Origin: a virus
Direction: 5' to 3' (one strand)
IMG/VR virus record: IMGVR_UViG_3300010939_000123
Span: 1 to 49,513 of that record
DNA: 49,513 nucleotides
Part shown: in pieces, positions 3,975 to 18,651 of the stretch
Numbering within the stretch: position 1 is the first letter of the stretch
Layout: each line of letters opens with the position of its first letter
Made by a program: the position numbers and the translations under genes
The notes under the pieces: generated by a model
What the model saw: the letters and a program-made list of their open reading frames with translations, nothing else
Told to the model about the DNA's origin: nothing
The model's database searches: none

Positions 3975-4802
3975 ATGAATGGATTGAAAATGGACAAACA
4001 GGTTTCGATATTAAAGGCTTTAGTCGAAGGAAACTCTGTACGTTCTACGGAGCGTATGACAGACGTACATCGGGATACAATCCTGCGCCTCTTGGTTCGC
4101 GTTGGAGAACGATGCCAAAAGATCATGGATCATGAAATGAAAGGGTTCCACTCTCATTTTTTGGAGGCAGATGAAATTTGGACATACGTCGGTAAAAAAG
4201 AAGGGCGACTTGATGAACAAGAAAAAGAGAACCCCGATATTGGAGACCAATATGTTTTCGTAGCTATAGATGCTCAGTCGAAATTGGTTCCTACATTTGT
4301 AGTTGGAAAGAGGGATGGGAAGACAGCATTAAAATTCATGAGGGACCTGAAATCGAAACTTAACGGGAACGGGAGGATTCAGCTTACGACAGACGGATTC
4401 AAACCCTATATAAATGCTGTAGAGTGGACTTTCGGAAGCGACATAGACTTTGCTCAACAAATAAAGTGTTATGACTCTGAGAACCCCGGACGTGGCCGAT
4501 ATTCCCCACCAAGAGTCTCAGAGGTGGTATCCAAGAAGATTAGTGGAAACCCTGATTCCGTTCATATCTCTACGTCTTTTGTTGAAAGGCAGAATCTTAC
4601 GATGAGAATGCAGATGAGAAGGTTTACACGGCTGACCAATGCTTTTAGCAAGAAGTTGGAAAATCTAAAGGCGGCCGTGGCGTTGCATTTCTACCACTAT
4701 AATTTCATGCGGGTACATCGAACATTAAGAGTGACCCCTGCTATGGAAGCTGGTATAACAAATCATATTTGGACGTGGAAAGAATTATTTGGCGACAGTT
4801 GA
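3975..4802 (+). CDS. IS1-family-type DDE transposase
   Basis: 275 aa. An N-terminal helix-turn-helix-like segment (ILKALVEGNSVRSTERMTDV) leads into the catalytic core. The acidic residues are D in LEADEIWTYVGKK (about residue 64), D in LTTDGFKPY (about 138) and E in SFVERQNLTMRM (about 204). The C-terminal LHFYHYNFMRVHRTLRVTPA is typical of the single-ORF IS1-like transposases. It cuts and joins the element ends. The same C-terminal TPAM-AG-(I/V) motif recurs as a remnant at 6546-6620. It is followed 17 nt later by the methyltransferase in the same direction. Confidence 0.85.
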   Translation: MNGLKMDKQVSILKALVEGNSVRSTERMTDVHRDTILRLLVRVGERCQKIMDHEMKGFHSHFLEADEIWTYVGKKEGRLDEQEKENPDIGDQYVFVAIDAQSKLVPTFVVGKRDGKTALKFMRDLKSKLNGNGRIQLTTDGFKPYINAVEWTFGSDIDFAQQIKCYDSENPGRGRYSPPRVSEVVSKKISGNPDSVHISTSFVERQNLTMRMQMRRFTRLTNAFSKKLENLKAAVALHFYHYNFMRVHRTLRVTPAMEAGITNHIWTWKELFGDS

Positions 4803-4819: not shown

Positions 4820-6085
4820 ATGGGCCAAAAAAATAAACTTATTTGTGGTGATAATTTAGAAATACTGGCTACTCTAAAAAGTGAGAGTGTGGACTTAATT
4901 TATATAGATCCCCCATTTTTTAGTAATAGACATTATGAAATAATTTGGGGTGATGAGGCTGAAATAAGGAGTTTTGAAGATAGATGGGAAGGAGGGATGA
5001 ATGTTTATATTGACTGGATGAAACAAAGAATCATGGAACTACACCGAGTATTAAAACCTACTGGATCTTTTTATCTCCATTGTGACTGGCACGCCAGTCA
5101 TTATTTGAAGGTTATGTGTGATGAAATATTTGGCTATAATAATTTTAGAAATGAAATAATATGGAGTTACAAGAGATATACAGCTAAGAGTAATAAATTC
5201 CAGAGATTACATGATTCTATTCTTTTTTATGGACGAGGTAATAAGGCTACATTTAATGAGATCAGAGAAAAATATGGGGAAAAATCTGGCAAGGCCGATT
5301 CGCATTATAAACTAGACGAACATGGGGAATGGGTTCGGTGGCAAAAACGAAAAGGAAAAGAACCATATAAAATTCGTTTATCAAAGGGAAAAAGATTAGG
5401 AGATGTCTGGGAGATATCTCATATAAATGCTTCAGCAAAAGAGAGACTTGGATATCCTACACAGAAACCAGAACGGCTTTTAGAAAGAATAATAAACGCT
5501 TCTTCCAATAAAGATGATACTGTTTTAGACGTTTTTTGTGGGTGTGGAACGGCTCTAGCAGTTGCACAGGATCTAGGAAGGCGTTGGATCGGTATTGATA
5601 TCTCACCATCAGCCATTTCTTTAGTTAAAGCACGCCTTGCTAATATGGGGATGCGTGAAGAACATTTTGATATTATAGGAATGCCCAATAAGATAGATGA
5701 TTTAAAGAGATTTAAACCTTATGAATTTCAATATTGGGCAATAAATGAAATACATGGAATGCCAAACCCAAGAAAATCAGGTGATTTGGGAATAGATGGA
5801 TTCAGCTTTATAGATCATTATCCTATACAAGTTAAACAATCGTTTAGTGTCGGAAAGAACGTAATAGATAATTTTGAGACAGCTATAAGACGGTATTATA
5901 AAGAACAAAAAAAAGAAATGACTGGGTATGTTATTGCCTTTAGTTTTGGAAAAGGTGCCTATGAAGAGGTCGCAAGGATAAAAAAAGAAGGCATAAAAAT
6001 CAACCTAATAACTGTCCAGAATATCTTAGATAAAGAAATCGTAATAGAACAAAAGGTCAAAAACGAACAAACTAAATTTTTCTAA
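4820..6085 (+). CDS. beta-class DNA methyltransferase fused to a nuclease-like domain
   Basis: 421 aa. Motif IV DPPF at residues 30-33 precedes the AdoMet motif FCGCG near residue 238, the order of beta-class N6-adenine/N4-cytosine methyltransferases; YPTQKPERLLERII lies between. After about residue 290 a second domain carries GDLGIDG (about 322) and IQVKQS (about 336), the D...(Q)xK arrangement of Mrr-like PD-(D/E)XK nucleases. It may therefore both methylate and cut, or the domain may only bind DNA. GAGGG lies before ATG. It is probably co-transcribed with the transposase as a passenger gene. The recognition site is unknown. Confidence 0.85.
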   Translation: MGQKNKLICGDNLEILATLKSESVDLIYIDPPFFSNRHYEIIWGDEAEIRSFEDRWEGGMNVYIDWMKQRIMELHRVLKPTGSFYLHCDWHASHYLKVMCDEIFGYNNFRNEIIWSYKRYTAKSNKFQRLHDSILFYGRGNKATFNEIREKYGEKSGKADSHYKLDEHGEWVRWQKRKGKEPYKIRLSKGKRLGDVWEISHINASAKERLGYPTQKPERLLERIINASSNKDDTVLDVFCGCGTALAVAQDLGRRWIGIDISPSAISLVKARLANMGMREEHFDIIGMPNKIDDLKRFKPYEFQYWAINEIHGMPNPRKSGDLGIDGFSFIDHYPIQVKQSFSVGKNVIDNFETAIRRYYKEQKKEMTGYVIAFSFGKGAYEEVARIKKEGIKINLITVQNILDKEIVIEQKVKNEQTKFF

Positions 6086-12527: not shown

Positions 12528-13571
12528 ATGGAGACAATAACGCTCGGGCCAAAACAACTGGCCGAGCTCTTAACAAAAACCATCCCGGCACGAATGCCGT
12601 TATTGATCACGGGGCCTCCGGGGGGAGGTAAAAGCGACATCATAGACCAGTCAAGGCTGGCGGTTGGAGCAGACCTCATCCTGTCCCATCCGGCCATATC
12701 TGACCCCACTGATGCAAAGGGGCTCCCCTGGCCAGAGAAGGGTGCTAAAACGGCAACCTTTCTCCCGTTCGGTGATCTGGCCAGGGCGCTGGCCGCGGAG
12801 AAGCTCACGGTCTGGGACCTTGATGACCTTGGACAGGCCACACCGGCCGTGCAGGCGAGCTTCATGCAGTTGCTCCTGGCCAGAAGTGTCAACGGTCATG
12901 TCCTTCCGGATTGTGTGACTTTTATCGCGGCCACTAACAGGCGTAGCGACCGTGCCTGGGTCTCAGGGATCCTGGAGCCAGTCAAATCTCGCTTTACCAT
13001 GATCGTAGAGCTTGAGACAAACCTGAACGACTGGTGTGAATGGGCCATCAAAAATGGCATGGCACCTGAGCTTATCGCGTTCTTAAGATTCAGACCCAAT
13101 CTGCTCCATAAGTTAGAAGCCACGGCGGACTTAACAAACTCACCCTGCCCAAGAACATGGGCGTCTGTCGGAAAAATACTTAAGCTCAAGCTCAGGGGTC
13201 ATTTGGAGCTTGCCGCGATTTCAGGCGCGGTTGGAGAAGGCGCGGCCAGCGAGTTCATCGCTTTTTTAAGGGTCTACAGGGAAATGCCGTCCATTGACGG
13301 TATCCTCCTCACGCCGGATACTGCCCCGATACCTAAAGAACCATCTGCGCTCTACGCGGTATCGTCTGCGCTCGGAGATCGGGCCAATGCGAAGAACTTC
13401 CCACAGATTTCCAGATACTGCGAGAGGTTGGTATCTAAAAATCATGCGGAATTTGCGGTCCTCACGGTGAGAGACGCAATCAGAAGGGATTCAAAAATAA
13501 CACGGACCCCAGAATTTATTAAGATGGGAAACTCTGAAATTGGGAGGCTCGTATCAGGAGAGGAGGAATAA
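12528..13571 (+). CDS. MoxR-type AAA+ ATPase
   Basis: 347 aa. Walker A GPPGGGKS at residues 29-36, Walker B VWDLDD at 95-100 and sensor-1 AATN at 134-137 identify a MoxR-group AAA+ ATPase. GGGAGGAAAACC precedes ATG. These ATPases act with VWA proteins as chaperones that insert metals or remodel complexes. The partner gene follows after a 24-codon HNH remnant, 75 bp away, so the pair is an operon. In a phage it may remodel a host or virion complex. The substrate is unknown. Confidence 0.85.
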   Translation: METITLGPKQLAELLTKTIPARMPLLITGPPGGGKSDIIDQSRLAVGADLILSHPAISDPTDAKGLPWPEKGAKTATFLPFGDLARALAAEKLTVWDLDDLGQATPAVQASFMQLLLARSVNGHVLPDCVTFIAATNRRSDRAWVSGILEPVKSRFTMIVELETNLNDWCEWAIKNGMAPELIAFLRFRPNLLHKLEATADLTNSPCPRTWASVGKILKLKLRGHLELAAISGAVGEGAASEFIAFLRVYREMPSIDGILLTPDTAPIPKEPSALYAVSSALGDRANAKNFPQISRYCERLVSKNHAEFAVLTVRDAIRRDSKITRTPEFIKMGNSEIGRLVSGEEE

Positions 13572-13572
13572 G

Positions 13573-13647
13573 GTGCCTAAAGCATTGAAATTAACCGGAA
13601 GAAAATTTCACAGGTTGACAGTTATATGCAAAATGGGAGCATCGTAA
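13573..13647 (+). pseudogene. HNH homing-endonuclease N-terminal remnant
   Basis: GTG 13573, 1 nt after the MoxR stop and after GGAGGA, encodes VPKALKLTGRKFHRLTVICK MGAS, then TAA. LTGxxFxRLTV is the standard opening of phage HNH/AP2-type endonucleases (usually LTGQRFGRLTVL). Only 24 codons remain. The final A of its TAA is the first base of the next gene's ATG (TAATG), so it may now serve as a coupling leader. A similar fragment opens at 15817. Confidence 0.6.
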
Positions 13648-15814
13648 TGAAGCACACTAAGGCGATGAAGAAGCTGGTAAGCGCCAGGGTGGCTTTAGTT
13701 TTAGACTCACCTTTCTTCGGAAGCCTGTCGCTGAGGCTGAATATGCGGGAGGATTTGTCCTGCCCTACCATGTATACGGACGGGTCGATCATTGGGTACA
13801 ACCCCGATGTTGTGGAAAAATGGTCGCCTGCAGAGATTCAGGGCGTGCTCTGCCACGAGATATTACACGTTGCCAGCGGACATGTGTGGCGAAGAGATTG
13901 TCGGGACATGAAAAAATGGAATATGGCATGTGTAAAGCCTGGAACGATCATACCTGGAGATTACGAGACTATAGACACGCTGAATACAGCAAGATGTATG
14001 TTGTCCCATTTAAAATGAAGTCAATTAAAAACAAGACATGGGGGACCGGAAAAAAGATCTTTGGTGAGCCAGTGTGGGTTGCAGCGAAAGACATTGGAAG
14101 GTTTCACATGATGGTAATTCCGAAGTTAAAAGGGCGGTTCGATATCACAGAGTTACCACTGACCGGGTTTATAAAGAAAGTAGTAGATAGGACTGGTAGA
14201 AACCAAGGCATGGCACACAATGCCCGCATTAAGACGTTGCCGTTAAATACAGAGACCGCTTGGATGATGGGCGTCTATGTGGCCGAGGGTTCTGCTGGTA
14301 GTTACGATAAAAACTTCAAGTTCTCACTTGGTAGAGACAAGGACGAGGCCGTCAGGGACAGACTGGTAGAGCTATTCCGTAACCTCGGATATTCCCCCGG
14401 CGTGGTCGAAACTGATTGTGATTCGCGTATAAGCGTAATCATACCTAGTTCAATACTTATGCGTGCATTTAAGCAATGGTTCGGTAGAGGAGCTCACAAC
14501 AAGAAGATTCCAGATTGGATTCTTCTGCATAATGACGAGGAGATTATAAGATCGTTTCTATGGGGATATCTCGCTGGAGATGGATGTGTTTACAACAACA
14601 AGAGTGACTCTATTTCTTTTGACACGGTAAGCGAGAAACTCGCACTTCAGGTCCAGATCATGATTGCAAGGTTCGCAGGAATGGTGACCTTCCAGAAGAA
14701 ACTTCAGCCTGAGAGGGCCATCAGAGGCCAAAAGTTATGTCCTAGCTGGATTTTCAAGATGCAGTCTAGGAATCGCAGGGTTTTAGAGTTTCTTGGCGTG
14801 ACAAGCCGCTCCAATGACAGACGTGTGTTTGCTCATGACATGGGGGGCTGTTGGCTTGTACGTGTACGTAATGTCAAAGCCGTGCCTTACGAAGGGATGG
14901 TCTACAATGTGGAAACAGAAGACCACTCCTATTTGGTTGGAAATTCCGTGGTTCACAACTGCGACTACGCAATCAACCCCATTATTATCGATGCCGACAT
15001 GGTCCTCCCTAAAGGAACACTCATGGACTCAAAATACAAAGGCCTGCCTGCCGAGAGAATATACACCATGCTTCCGGACGATACGGAAGGTGAAAAGGAC
15101 AACAATAAGGACGGCTCATCTCCTGCAGAAGGAGATTTCGGTCCCGGGTCGGTACGAGACAACCCCGGGTCTGAAGAAAAAATAACTCAATCTCGATGCG
15201 ATTGGGTTGTCGCGGTAAGACAGGCCGCTCAATCCGCAAAGGCCATGGGGAAACTTCCGGGATCCCTTGAAGGCATGGTACAGGAGATGTTAAGACCCAA
15301 AGGTGACTGGCGCGCGCTCTTGAGGCGGTTTGTTCAGGAGACGGCCAGAGCGGACTATTCGTGGAAGATCCCGAACCGGCGCTATGTCGCGGCCGGACTT
15401 TACCTTCCAAGCCTACGCTCGGAACAGATGCCCCCGATCGTGGTCGCGGTAGACAGCTCTGGGTCTATTATCCAAGGAGAGATGGACCGATTTGCTTCCG
15501 AGATCAACGCCATCGTCCGTGAAACACGGCCTGAGACAACCCATGTGGTCTATTGCGATTCCAGGATCCAAAATAATGAGGAGTTCCTTCCCAACGAAGA
15601 CATTGTCCTGAAACCAAAAGGAGGTGGGGGAACTGCGTTTTCTCCGGTCTTTTCCTGGGTCGACAAAGAAGGCATCGAACCTGCGTGCCTGATCTATTTG
15701 ACTGACGGTTATGGGCAGTTTGAAGGTGTACCACCAGATTATCCTGTTCTGTGGGCACTGACATCAGATATAAAACCACCTTTTGGTGAATTTGTAAATA
15801 TAAATGAGACCTGA
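13647..15814 (+). CDS. VWA-domain / metallopeptidase-like protein interrupted by an intein; frame broken
   Basis: N-extein: 94 aa with HEILH at residues 70-74 (zinc peptidase-like motif). C-extein: 284 aa with CDYAINPIIIDADMVLP, a VWA domain with MIDAS VAVDSSGSI, and YLTDGYG. This is the DUF2201-type architecture (metallopeptidase-like plus VWA), the usual partner of MoxR ATPases. Joined exteins give about 378 aa. An intein (13929-14959) sits between WNMA and CDYAINP. As sequenced, the N-terminal frame stops at TGA 14016-14018 and the rest is in the -1 frame, so a full product needs a frameshift, or the gene is dead, or a base is missing from the sequence. ATG 13647 has GGGAG 7 nt upstream. 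Confidence 0.8.
13929..14959 (+). other. intein with LAGLIDADG-type homing endonuclease
   Basis: It begins at Cys (CVKPGTIIPGDYETIDTLN, a block-A-like start) and ends YLVGNSVVHN before Cys of the C-extein: a canonical Cys1, His-Asn end and Cys+1. WMMGVYVAEGSAG and FLWGYLAGDGCVYN are the two dodecapeptide motifs of DOD homing endonucleases. The length of 1031 nt is one short of 344 codons. The frame changes near 14009-14018, at T_TTA_AAA followed by TGA. Block B (TxxH) is not evident in the N-terminal splicing part, so a small deletion there is possible. It inserts at the conserved xACDYAINP site beside the active-site region. Confidence 0.85.
14009..14018 (+). other. slippery heptamer T_TTA_AAA before TGA
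   Basis: In the zero frame the codons are CAT TTA AAA TGA. The heptamer TTTAAAA has X_XXY_YYZ form, and a -1 slip would continue MKSIKNKTWG, the frame of the rest of the intein. No clear downstream pseudoknot was found. This could be chance at an indel. Confidence 0.4.
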
Positions 15815-15816
15815 AA

Positions 15817-16263
15817 ATGGGAACATTCATTGAGTTAACCGGGAAAACTTTCAATAGGCTGTTGGTGCTTCAATTATAACATAAGACATCTCCGGGAAAG
15901 TACTTCTGGGCGTGTCTATGTAATTGTGGAATCAGTGCGTGGTTGAAGGAATGCGCCTACGATCAGGAAACACGAAGTCTTGTGGATGCCGTAAGGCTGA
16001 GACTCGACAGGAACTACACCGTAAAACGTATAAACGGCGACTATTCACCTCATAATTGTAGGTGGGCAACGCTGGAACAACAGTCTAGAAACAAACGCAG
16101 TAACAGATTAATAACGTGGCGGGGATACACGAGAATTCTGACAGACTGGGCAGATATGCTAGGCAAACAAGCGTCATGGTTACATAAAAGACTATCCAAA
16201 TATTCGTTGGACAAAGCAATGTCCCCTTTCGATCAGATTATAAACTCAGATAGGGAAAATTAG
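15817..16263 (+). pseudogene. degraded HNH homing endonuclease
   Basis: One frame from ATG 15817 reads MGTFIELTGKTFNRLLVLQL, an in-frame TAA (15877-15879), then KYFWACLCNCG, WLKECAYDQ, KRINGDYSPHNCRWATLEQQ and RLITWRGYTRILTDWADMLG. These are the N-terminal LTGxxFxRL, the WxCxCxCG knuckle, the xNGNYSPxNCRWAT core and the DNA-binding tail of phage HNH endonucleases. The central W..M..RC..YGGRGI part is missing. With the stop and deletion it is inactive. Confidence 0.75.
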
Positions 16264-16286
16264 GAGTCTTAATGTTAATAAAATGT

Positions 16287-16407
16287 CAACGTAGGTCGTT
16301 GTGTCGAAAGACGGTGCGCCGTGATCGGCGCAGGGAGCAAGGACGGTATTCATCTATCTTCGGATCATGGCCCCTAACCTATGGTGAGGTGCCCTGACGC
16401 TACGTTG
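16287..16407 (+). ncRNA. second msr-like module (possible duplicate or relic retron RNA)
   Basis: Hairpin TGCGCC-GTGATC-GGCGCA (16315-16332) has the same loop and following GGGA as the msr hairpin at 16576-16593 (TGTGCT-GTGATC-GGCACA); the stems differ by paired changes. Upstream, ACGTAGGTC-TTG-TCG resembles ACGTAATAGGTCTTTTCG of the retron RNA. CAACGTAG (16287-16294) pairs with CTACGTTG (16400-16407), a possible short a1/a2. A competing pair TGTGTCGA/TCGACACA (16300-16307/16457-16464) also exists. No long msd hairpin is seen, so it may be a relic. Confidence 0.5.
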
Positions 16408-16490
16408 CAACACAGATGAAGTAGGTCAAGACGCCATATAAGCGTGTGTTCTGATATCGACACAGAGTGAGACAGTATTGAGCACCAGGT

Positions 16491-16509
16491 TTTTATCAAG
16501 GGGATAAAA
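16491..16509 (+). other. stem-loop upstream of retron RNA
   Basis: TTTTATC/GATAAAA, 7 bp with a 5-nt loop, 28 nt before a1. It may be part of the promoter or an insulating structure. A weak TTGAGC...GATAAA promoter-like pair (16478-16508) overlaps it. Confidence 0.3.
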
Positions 16510-16537
16510 GGGCTACGGCATCCAACAACAGAACCAT

Positions 16538-16736
16538 CTCACGTAATAGGTCTTTTCGCAGTTCAATCTGCGATGTGTGCTGTGATCGGCACAGGGAAAA
16601 AAGATATCCATACCGAAGAATCGGGTAGATTCCAAAAAAGTCCCCCCTTGCTTGGTAAAAAGGGGGGAAAAAAAAAGATGTTTTACCAAACAAGCTAGAC
16701 TTTTTATGGAAGCTACAAAAGAAGCTATTACGTGAG
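16538..16736 (+). ncRNA. retron msr-msd non-coding RNA
   Basis: a1 CTCACGTAATAG (16538-16549) is perfectly complementary to a2 CTATTACGTGAG (16725-16736). After a1 comes G-rich TAGGTC (candidate branching G at 16549/16550), then msr hairpins TCGCA/TGCGA (16556-16573) and TGTGCT/GGCACA (16576-16593), and a small stem 16611-16627. The msd forms one long hairpin: 17 pairs between 16625-16642 and 16698-16716 (one mismatch, one bulged A), a small internal loop, and 13 pairs between 16647-16660 and 16681-16694, with a 20-nt loop. This is the standard retron layout directly before its RT. The a2 end overlaps the GTG upstream of the RT start. Confidence 0.85.
16641..16668 (+). other. alternative C6/G6 hairpin within msd
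   Basis: TCCCCCCTT/AAGGGGGGA, 9 bp with a 10-nt loop. It is mutually exclusive with the upper half of the long msd hairpin and could form in the RNA or in the cDNA. Confidence 0.5.
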
Positions 16737-16758
16737 TTTTATAAACAGGGAGGAAGTG

Positions 16759-17574
16759 ATGTACCACGTCTTTAAGATACCGAAACGGGACGGATCCATG
16801 CGGACCATTGAAGCGCCTGACGATAAACTTAAGGTCAAACAAAGGAAGACCCTGAAGGTCCTTCATAAGACCTTCAGGGTCTCGCCCTTCGCCCATGCCT
16901 TCCAACCCTACAAGAACACCGTGACCTGTGCACTCTCTCATGTGGGGAAGCGATGGGTGGGATGCATCGACATTAAAGATTTCTTCCCGTCGATAAAGCT
17001 GATTATGTTTAACCGTCATGTTCATGCAGAACCATTCCAATCCCCATTAGATTACCTTTTTTGCTTCCACAACTTTAAGGACAGAAAGGGAGAAAGGCTC
17101 CCCCAGGGCGCACCCACCTCCCCGTTTCTGTCAAATGCCTACCTCTTCAAGCTGGATTGGAGGATGGCGTGGATGTCCTATAACAGAGGCGTGACCTATT
17201 CCCGTTACGCCGACGACCTCATCTTCTCCGGAGACTCGGCCTCAAACATCAGGGCCATGTTCAAGATTGCACAAGTCATTCTAGAAAAAGATTACTTCCT
17301 GACGATCAACCACAAGAAGACGAAGATGATGCATCGCCGGCATAGGCAACTTGTCTGTGGTGTCGTCGTCAATGAAAAGATCAATCTTCCACGGAAGTGG
17401 CGCAAGAACTTAAGGGCGGAGGTTTTTCAGAAAAAACGCACGGGGTTTGTTCCGGAAGAAACGGCGGGAAGGCTTGCCTACCTGAATATGGTCGTCGGTC
17501 ACAAGAAGACATCTTTCTCAAGCATCCATATGTGCAACAGCATCGTATTCAAAAGGAAGCTGGCCGGGAAGTGA
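16759..17574 (+). CDS. retron-type reverse transcriptase
   Basis: 271 aa from ATG 16759, chosen over GTG 16732 because GGGAGG lies 5 nt upstream. YHVFKIPKRDGSMRTIEAP, DIKDFFPSI (catalytic Asp), QGAPTSPFLSNAY (116-128), YSRYADDLIFSG (YADD 150-153) and KINLPRKWRKNLRAEVF are retron RT blocks. Two retron signatures deviate: NAxxH reads CALSH (57-61) and VTG reads VCG (199-201). The usual N-terminal helical extension is absent. It copies part of the upstream ncRNA into branched msDNA. Group II intron and DGR RTs are excluded: no maturase domain X, and QG rather than the DGR motif. It is followed by overlapping small ORF and recombinase genes. Confidence 0.9.
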   Translation: MYHVFKIPKRDGSMRTIEAPDDKLKVKQRKTLKVLHKTFRVSPFAHAFQPYKNTVTCALSHVGKRWVGCIDIKDFFPSIKLIMFNRHVHAEPFQSPLDYLFCFHNFKDRKGERLPQGAPTSPFLSNAYLFKLDWRMAWMSYNRGVTYSRYADDLIFSGDSASNIRAMFKIAQVILEKDYFLTINHKKTKMMHRRHRQLVCGVVVNEKINLPRKWRKNLRAEVFQKKRTGFVPEETAGRLAYLNMVVGHKKTSFSSIHMCNSIVFKRKLAGK

Positions 17575-17575
17575 G

Positions 17576-17692
17576 ATGACGGAAAACCAAATGATTATCT
17601 TGAAGATAATTCCCTCTGACCGTAGTTTGCGGGGAAAACCATTCTTCATTAATCTATGGAACCAGCGGGATTCAAGTGAGGTAAAACCATGA
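17576..17692 (+). CDS. 38-aa protein between RT and recombinase
   Basis: ATG 17576 is 1 nt after the RT stop with GGGAAG upstream; its TGA overlaps the recombinase ATG (CCATGA). It begins MTENQMIILKIIPSDRSLRG and continues KPFFINLWNQRDSSE. Its length and overlaps suggest a coupling peptide or a small partner. Function unknown. Confidence 0.55.
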   Translation: MTENQMIILKIIPSDRSLRGKPFFINLWNQRDSSEVKP

Positions 17693-18651
17693 CACCGGAA
17701 GAAGAAAGACAGCAACAAGCCGTGCACCGGACGTTGATGCTGGCCATTCTTAATAAGTTGACTTCCCTGGAAAACAAGATGGATGGACCACAGGCTGACC
17801 TGTCCATTGGTGAGGCGGTCGAAGGGTTCAGGGCCTATCTGGATAAAGAGACAAAGCGTCCGGAGAACTATAACTATATCCTCGGTAAATTCTTAAACCA
17901 CTTCACTTCAGAACGCAACATCTGCGGCATCAACGCAGAAGAGATCGAGGGCTTTCTCATGCACCACTGGTCTTCGAAGAACACCCTAAAGCATAGGCTT
18001 ATTCAGCTCAACGGGCTGTTCAAGTGGTCGGTCCTTCACCAACGCAGGCGCAACCTCCCGATCTTCAGTAACCCGTGCGAGCTCATCAGGTTCAAAGGGA
18101 CCCGAGCTAAATCCCCTCAATATGTGCCTCAGCACTCCCTCTCAGGCATCTTTAGGGCCGCACCCGACCGGGACATCCTGATATTCAGCATCCTCCTGTC
18201 ATCGGGCTTGCGTGTCTCTGAGATGCTTAAATTAAGACTCTGTGATATCAACGGCCGCGTCCTCACGCTTCACGACCCAAAGTCAGGGCAAGATATAGAA
18301 TACGCCGTGATCCCACAGCGCGTCTCGGACAAACTTAAAAGGTATGGGATGGTGTGCTGTGAATCACACCATGAAAGGATATTCAAGATATCTCGCCAAG
18401 GGGTAGGGAACATCGTCTACAGGTGGTCGCGTGCGTCCAACCTATCCCTCTCCGTCCACGCCCTTAGAAAGTGGTGTGCCACCTTTTGGAACCGGGCCGG
18501 TGATCAAGAGATGGAGGCGTTTGTACTGAGACACCATCCTGGATTAAGGGAGCGTTACGTGGCGACACTTGATACGGATGAGGCAATGGAAAGGCAGGAT
18601 AAACACTTAACTCCACTATTTGAGAAAGGGGGTGAACTTTGCGGGAAGTAG
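17689..18651 (+). CDS. tyrosine recombinase / integrase
   Basis: 320 aa. A SAM-like core-binding domain (about 40-130) precedes the catalytic domain. Visible residues are R175 in SSGLRVSEM, K198 in DPKSGQ, H257 and R260 in VHALRKW, H282/H283 in RHHPGL and Tyr290 in RERYVATL, a complete R-K-H-R-H-Y set. It would cut and rejoin DNA for phage integration/excision or dimer resolution. It is the only recombinase candidate for this phage in the window, and it is translationally coupled to the retron genes. No attachment site was identified. Confidence 0.85.
   Translation: MTPEEERQQQAVHRTLMLAILNKLTSLENKMDGPQADLSIGEAVEGFRAYLDKETKRPENYNYILGKFLNHFTSERNICGINAEEIEGFLMHHWSSKNTLKHRLIQLNGLFKWSVLHQRRRNLPIFSNPCELIRFKGTRAKSPQYVPQHSLSGIFRAAPDRDILIFSILLSSGLRVSEMLKLRLCDINGRVLTLHDPKSGQDIEYAVIPQRVSDKLKRYGMVCCESHHERIFKISRQGVGNIVYRWSRASNLSLSVHALRKWCATFWNRAGDQEMEAFVLRHHPGLRERYVATLDTDEAMERQDKHLTPLFEKGGELCGK

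Follow-up and report, generated by a model that had tools for sequence, protein, structure and literature searches.

The phage DNA analysed here (the window, 49,513 nt) carries a retron in which a tandem array of about three ncRNAs stands before a single reverse transcriptase (RT), and from sequence we lean slightly towards a system in which this one RT would produce several different msDNAs and would be coupled to an upstream MoxR AAA ATPase and VWA protein. Retrons, in which a reverse transcriptase turns a folded RNA into small RNA-linked DNA, have been described as one RT, one ncRNA and one effector. A sequence-only reading of the window had reported one ncRNA with its RT inside a phage; the setting is indeed that of a tailed phage, with portal, terminase, head protease and tape measure genes, and that ncRNA is real, but it proved to be the last of a tandem series that starts at about 16284, with a MoxR-VWA gene pair upstream. 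Elsewhere the phage contig holds a DDE transposase-like gene (3975-4802) and an N6/N4 DNA methylase gene (4820-6085). The features of the retron region, in window coordinates, are:

12528..13571, + strand: MoxR-like AAA ATPase, 347 aa, probable partner (PHROG 1297 ATPase, 6e-69)
13626..15814, + strand: DUF2201 metallopeptidase/VWA gene (DUF2201_N 4.4e-28, DUF2201 2.9e-25)
16284..16412, + strand: ncRNA copy 1; a1 16287-16294, G 16295, recognition hairpin 16315-16332, msd ~16333-16399, a2 16400-16407; a1/a2 of 8 bp, then GTC as in copy 3
16415..16522, + strand: ncRNA copy 2, degenerate or divergent; a1 16415-16424, G 16425, hairpin 16445-16464, a2 16513-16522; a1/a2 8/10 paired
16538..16736, + strand: ncRNA copy 3; a1 16538-16549, G 16550, msd ~16594-16724, a2 16725-16736
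16759..17574, + strand: retron reverse transcriptase, 271 aa; SD GGGAGG at 16748-16753
17689-18651: tyrosine recombinase, directly downstream of the RT (Phage_integrase 2.5e-8)

Copy 3, the ncRNA first described, has the anatomy claimed for it in all but one detail. Its a1 (CTCACGTAATAG, 16538-16549) and a2 (CTATTACGTGAG, 16725-16736) are perfect complements over 12 bp, as had been reported, and the two msr hairpins are present, the first with a CGCAG/CTGCG stem (16557-16572) and the second reading UGUGCUG-UGAU-CGGCACA (16576-16593). The msd had been described as a 30-bp hairpin with a 20-nt loop; 20 nt do lie between the arms, but the description is only roughly right because the arms are 36 nt long and 75% complementary. 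This stem has two alternative apical pairings, and at its tip a rival CCCCCCTT/AAGGGGGG hairpin is used in the minimum-energy fold. The 216-nt region of copy 3 folds at -75.4 kcal/mol (z = -7.5), a value equalled by 0/200 dinucleotide shuffles. The priming context is TAGGTC in the window units and NNN-GTC in relatives, as against a conserved TAGC-like context of which several variants have been listed (PMC6868368). A covariance search, proposed as a check on the RNA, returned no match to Rfam msr or other RNA families at gathering and chance-level matches only below it; a1/a2 and the msr hairpin are conserved in homologous loci, and a lack of any such locus had been named as grounds for refutation. 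A sigma-70 promoter scan of the retron region found nothing on the + strand, and the terminator-like sites there all lie on the - strand; within the RT gene, a strong inverted repeat (16846-16883, 17 pairs, loop 4) is likewise terminator-like on the - strand.

The RT belongs among retron RTs; a place outside them had been named as grounds for refutation. The ORF matches RVT_1 (Pfam, 1.4e-24), its best matches are the PADLOC retron RT models (RT_XIII 216 bits, RT_III-A 194), with RT_XIII also the top PADLOC model in 4/5 relatives, and the closest solved structures are the retron RTs Ec86, Ec78 and Ec67. The a1/a2 stem, the hairpins of the msr and the stem of the msd are all in place next to an RT of the retron family, and the description of the locus as a complete retron stands. 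YADD is present as stated, but the retron C-terminal motifs credited to the protein are altered: region X has CALSH in place of NAxxH, and region Y opens with VCG rather than VTG, VCG being common to the close RT clade. Substitutions in both motifs are listed among validated retrons (PMC6868368). The listed start, GTG 16732, falls within a2 of copy 3, and the RTs of the close relatives L127, L128, L129 and L207 begin at the point that corresponds to ATG 16759; the gene probably starts at this ATG, behind GGGAGG (16748), rather than at the GTG. The closest RT relatives are all from phages (L127/L287, 51% identity over 270 columns; L128/L288; L129/L289), with L207 and L130/L290 as more distant relatives, and the first four form a supported group (98) on the RT tree. 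Viral contigs scanned with the window RT as a single protein gave no matches. PADLOC found no known retron effector adjoining the window RT and had no match for the neighbours scanned (tyrosine recombinase, small upstream ORF, AAA and VWA).

Upstream of copy 3, its recognition hairpin (16575-16596) recurs at 16314-16335 with 3 mismatches, a likeness seen in 0/100 shuffles. Between copies 1 and 3 a hairpin pair that is C-G versus U-A shows full compensation and a second changes from C-G to U-G; the structure is therefore conserved. A descriptor made of a1, G/GTC, the recognition hairpin and a2, which gave 0.001 matches per kb in Markov shuffles, found exactly two units in 99 kb (both window strands), copies 1 and 3, both before the RT. 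In copy 2 the pair that should close the hairpin is a C-C mismatch, and the strict descriptor missed this copy. Alignment of the msr parts gave z of 4.4 for copies 1/3 and 4.0 for copies 2/3 (the copy 2 boundaries are about 4 nt off), and msd alignments were around or under zero overall (-0.6 for copies 1/3). By this anatomy the window ncRNAs are an array of about three, with copy 3 the last before the RT. Fold z is -1.4 for copy 1 and -1.7 for copy 2, values reached by about 1 in 10-20 shuffles, and it is possible that one or both copies are decaying, because the folds are weak and the copy 2 closing pair is broken. Even so, more than one window copy is likely to be reverse transcribed, copy 2 being a less likely template. 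Just before the array, 15817-16263 looks by eye like an HNH/AP2-type homing-endonuclease-like remnant with an in-frame stop; Pfam gave no match for a 106-aa part of it, and an HNH-like gene occupies the same place, again by eye, in L128 and L129.

We have high confidence in the array anatomy and in its recurrence at other loci. In the 194-kb phage of L127/L287 the descriptor found 4 units genome-wide (fold z -3.4 to -5.5), 3 of them just upstream of the RT, and the fourth stands alone (L287 16273-16414, fold z -4.9), on the strand of the RT and 8 kb downstream of it, which suggests that ncRNA units can act in trans. Two further candidate units there, D (5491-5703) and E (5560-5721, both L127 coordinates), are uncertain. 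Clear arrays comprise six units in L318, three in L319, three in its relative L308, two in L322 and three, with nearly identical msr, in L292, while L288 and L289, among the closest RT relatives, have one ncRNA each. Nor are arrays confined to phages: in a Pyrinomonadaceae MAG (L272 3792-4374) two tandem ncRNAs have msd stems that differ and still pair, and an alignment comparison finds these two units also alike in msd. A strict survey upstream of 186 RT loci revealed two or more units on the sense strand at 13 and on the antisense strand at none, with at least one unit at 86 sense versus 23 antisense. After removal of near-copies, arrays stood at 6/93 phage RT loci versus 1/79 others, and the array label changes 5-7 times on the RT tree, so arrays are not one lineage.

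Six loci with two strict matches (L145, L208, L241, L251, L253, L259) had wide spacing or high GC and were not counted as arrays, and we claim no ncRNA for L130/L290, where GC is high and false descriptor matches are many; GC-rich descriptor matches on both strands at 141-145 kb of the L290 contig (G004 record, 194-kb phage) are held to be false positives. A 14-base msr pattern lacked specificity, matching 119 viral loci of which 0 had an RT. Two distant phages have a small ORF of about 75 aa, coiled in appearance, between array and RT (L127 5763-5993, L318 7718-7942).

Comparison between copies reveals a conserved msr and a divergent msd. The L292 copies share msr identity of 0.89-0.96 (z 14-17), against msd z of 0.5-3.9, and each array unit retains its own matching a1/a2. 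Hairpin pairing holds in 95/95 units, a count that is partly circular because the descriptor, by which most units were chosen, selects paired hairpins. The recognition hairpin matches that of Ec86 (stem, UUU loop), whose sequence was confirmed in E. coli genomes, and the Ec86 msr stem with its UUU loop is bound by RT region Y (PMC6868368). Cultured phages extend the pattern. Staphylococcus phage MarsHill has 4-5 units in the 1.2-kb gap before its RT, with 0 minus-strand matches, and the Staphylococcus jumbo phages MarsHill, S6, PALS_2, LY01 and Madawaska all have 4-5 units with their slots kept. Same-slot identity across these five is mostly 0.93-1.00 in msr and 0.72-1.00 in msd (boundaries of slots 1 and 5 vary), and slots 3 and 4 of MarsHill compare at 0.96 in msr and 0.56 in msd; individual msd sequences are therefore kept. 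In Listeria phage LPJP1, three units that resemble one another lie downstream of the RT. The RT of the staphylococcal phages has been reported as of unconfirmed role, without DGR regions (PMC10638138). That several copies are reverse transcribed seems likelier still in L318, L292 and the staphylococcal phages than in the window.

The MoxR-VWA pair recurs beside RTs as well. Pfam gave no match for the window MoxR-like protein itself; PHROG 1297, which it matches, also covers the L292 protein assigned to AAA_5 by Pfam, and homologues of the window protein occupy the same relative place in L287, L290 and L292. The window DUF2201 gene is interrupted by an intein-like insert (LAGLIDADG_3 2.5e-8) inside which the frame changes, by a real break or an assembly error, so that it spans two frames; a DUF2201/VWA gene is kept upstream of the RT in L287 and L290, and the window VWA, used by itself as query, retrieved no viral relatives. 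Among 175 RT loci, 20 (19 of them phage) have MoxR AAA and VWA genes close to the RT and in its orientation; L217 is the one locus where they are not upstream. The pair occurs in 7/9 array loci versus 13/163 others (Fisher p = 3e-6), a comparison in which related phages are not independent and the array list includes L292 and L294, judged partly by eye. It falls into two subfamilies, bpMoxR + VWA_2 (L318) and AAA_5 + DUF2201 (L292, which the window resembles). From the MoxR side, of 80 viral MoxR loci retrieved with the L318-type AAA, 13 had an RT, essentially the closest relatives (the twelve best-listed and L426); control viral loci had an RT in 0/119. On the RT tree the pair label changes 9 times, at least 4 of them forced, and 13/16 rows of one phage clade carry it. 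The pair also occurs in phages without an RT (Moorella phage MTATph1), the staphylococcal arrays have no adjacent MoxR annotation, and no pair was found in the records of L288 and L289, close RT relatives. On balance, functional coupling of the retron to MoxR-VWA is probable.

We propose that one RT would recognise several tandem ncRNAs through the shared msr hairpin (a stem, a wobble U-G or C-G, G-C and a 3-4 nt loop), would prime at the G just after a1 and would copy each ncRNA's own msd, giving a panel of different msDNAs from one enzyme. Where the cassette sits behind the MoxR AAA ATPase and VWA protein, as in many phages, RT-msDNA complexes may act with these two chaperone proteins, every msDNA answering to or mimicking a different partner, with competing phages or host defences as the target. 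This one-enzyme, many-templates layout suggests a multi-target molecular sensor or decoy. For the biological role, competitor exclusion is quite possible, as against a counter-defence decoy, which seems somewhat unlikely. We would venture only tentatively that this is a new phage system, in which an msDNA panel from a modular array governs a MoxR-VWA machine, the msr being the constant handle, the msd the swappable recognition part and the array a small evolving bait library against rival phages or host defences.

Some of this evidence could be read otherwise. Arrays are mostly phage-borne by the near-copy-filtered count given above, some have no MoxR-VWA nearby, and the window RT adjoins no effector found by PADLOC, as might be expected if phage-made msDNA-RT complexes were counter-defence decoys that mimic host retron antitoxin complexes or titrate host sensors, with MoxR-VWA a separate virion-assembly chaperone; virion assembly is the function proposed for jumbo-phage MoxR-vWA-metallopeptidase pairs (PMC7824862). 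A chance neighbour, however, would not adjoin the RT across several of its lineages (at least 4 forced changes), linkage to the RT marks one MoxR subgroup, and none of the msds was matched to a host retron, all of which makes this account rather unlikely. Plain tandem duplication, in which the unit nearest the RT would be the sole working one and the others redundant or in decay, we regard as unlikely: five staphylococcal phages conserve their slots one by one, the msr is kept as the msd diverges, each unit has its own matching a1/a2, and L287 has a unit 8 kb from the RT, even though the folds of window copies 1 and 2 are weak, a single unit is kept in each of L288 and L289, the L272 units resemble each other in msd too, and RT-less duplicated msr-msd repeats are known for Retron-Nex1 (PMC6868368). 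That copy 3 is by itself a complete retron ncRNA and that copies 1 and 2 are weak would also suit an ordinary single-ncRNA retron of known type, with the upstream likeness due to chance or to a regulatory hairpin; yet that hairpin, unmatched by shuffles, lies within its own a1-GTC...a2 frame, and related loci have clear arrays, so that this last account is very improbable.

If several msDNAs do come from one RT, slot-kept arrays with constant msr and varied msd would mean one enzyme serving many msDNAs, and the arrays would show directly which msDNA part carries specificity. They would offer a possible answer for the role of the RT in staphylococcal jumbo phages and could be useful for multiplexed ssDNA production, and the MoxR-VWA link would supply a testable partner where the usual effector was not found.

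The system shares with classical retrons (Ec86/Retron-Eco1, PADLOC types) the family of its RT, the a1/a2 stem with a priming G behind a1, the recognition hairpin in the msr, the stem in the msd and the placement of an ncRNA just upstream of the RT. It differs from them in having several ncRNAs with different msds per RT, a MoxR-VWA pair upstream where no known effector gene was found, and an RT with a short N-terminus besides its CALSH and VCG motifs. A literature search that took in few subscription papers and no preprints returned no description of ncRNA arrays next to a single retron RT, nor of a retron-MoxR-VWA link. The same MoxR AAA + VWA couple appears in MoxR-vWA ternary conflict systems (PMC7159879) and in jumbo-phage pairs (PMC7824862), where the accessible text connects it to neither a retron RT nor an ncRNA array; the L318 AAA matches Pfam bpMoxR, and the L292 and window VWA proteins match DUF2201. 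The nearest literature precedent is the RT-less repeats of Retron-Nex1 (Ne160), which likewise has more than one msr-msd sequence per locus (PMC6868368); those repeats have no RT within a kilobase, whereas here the array stands beside one RT, its msds are divergent and it is found in phages.
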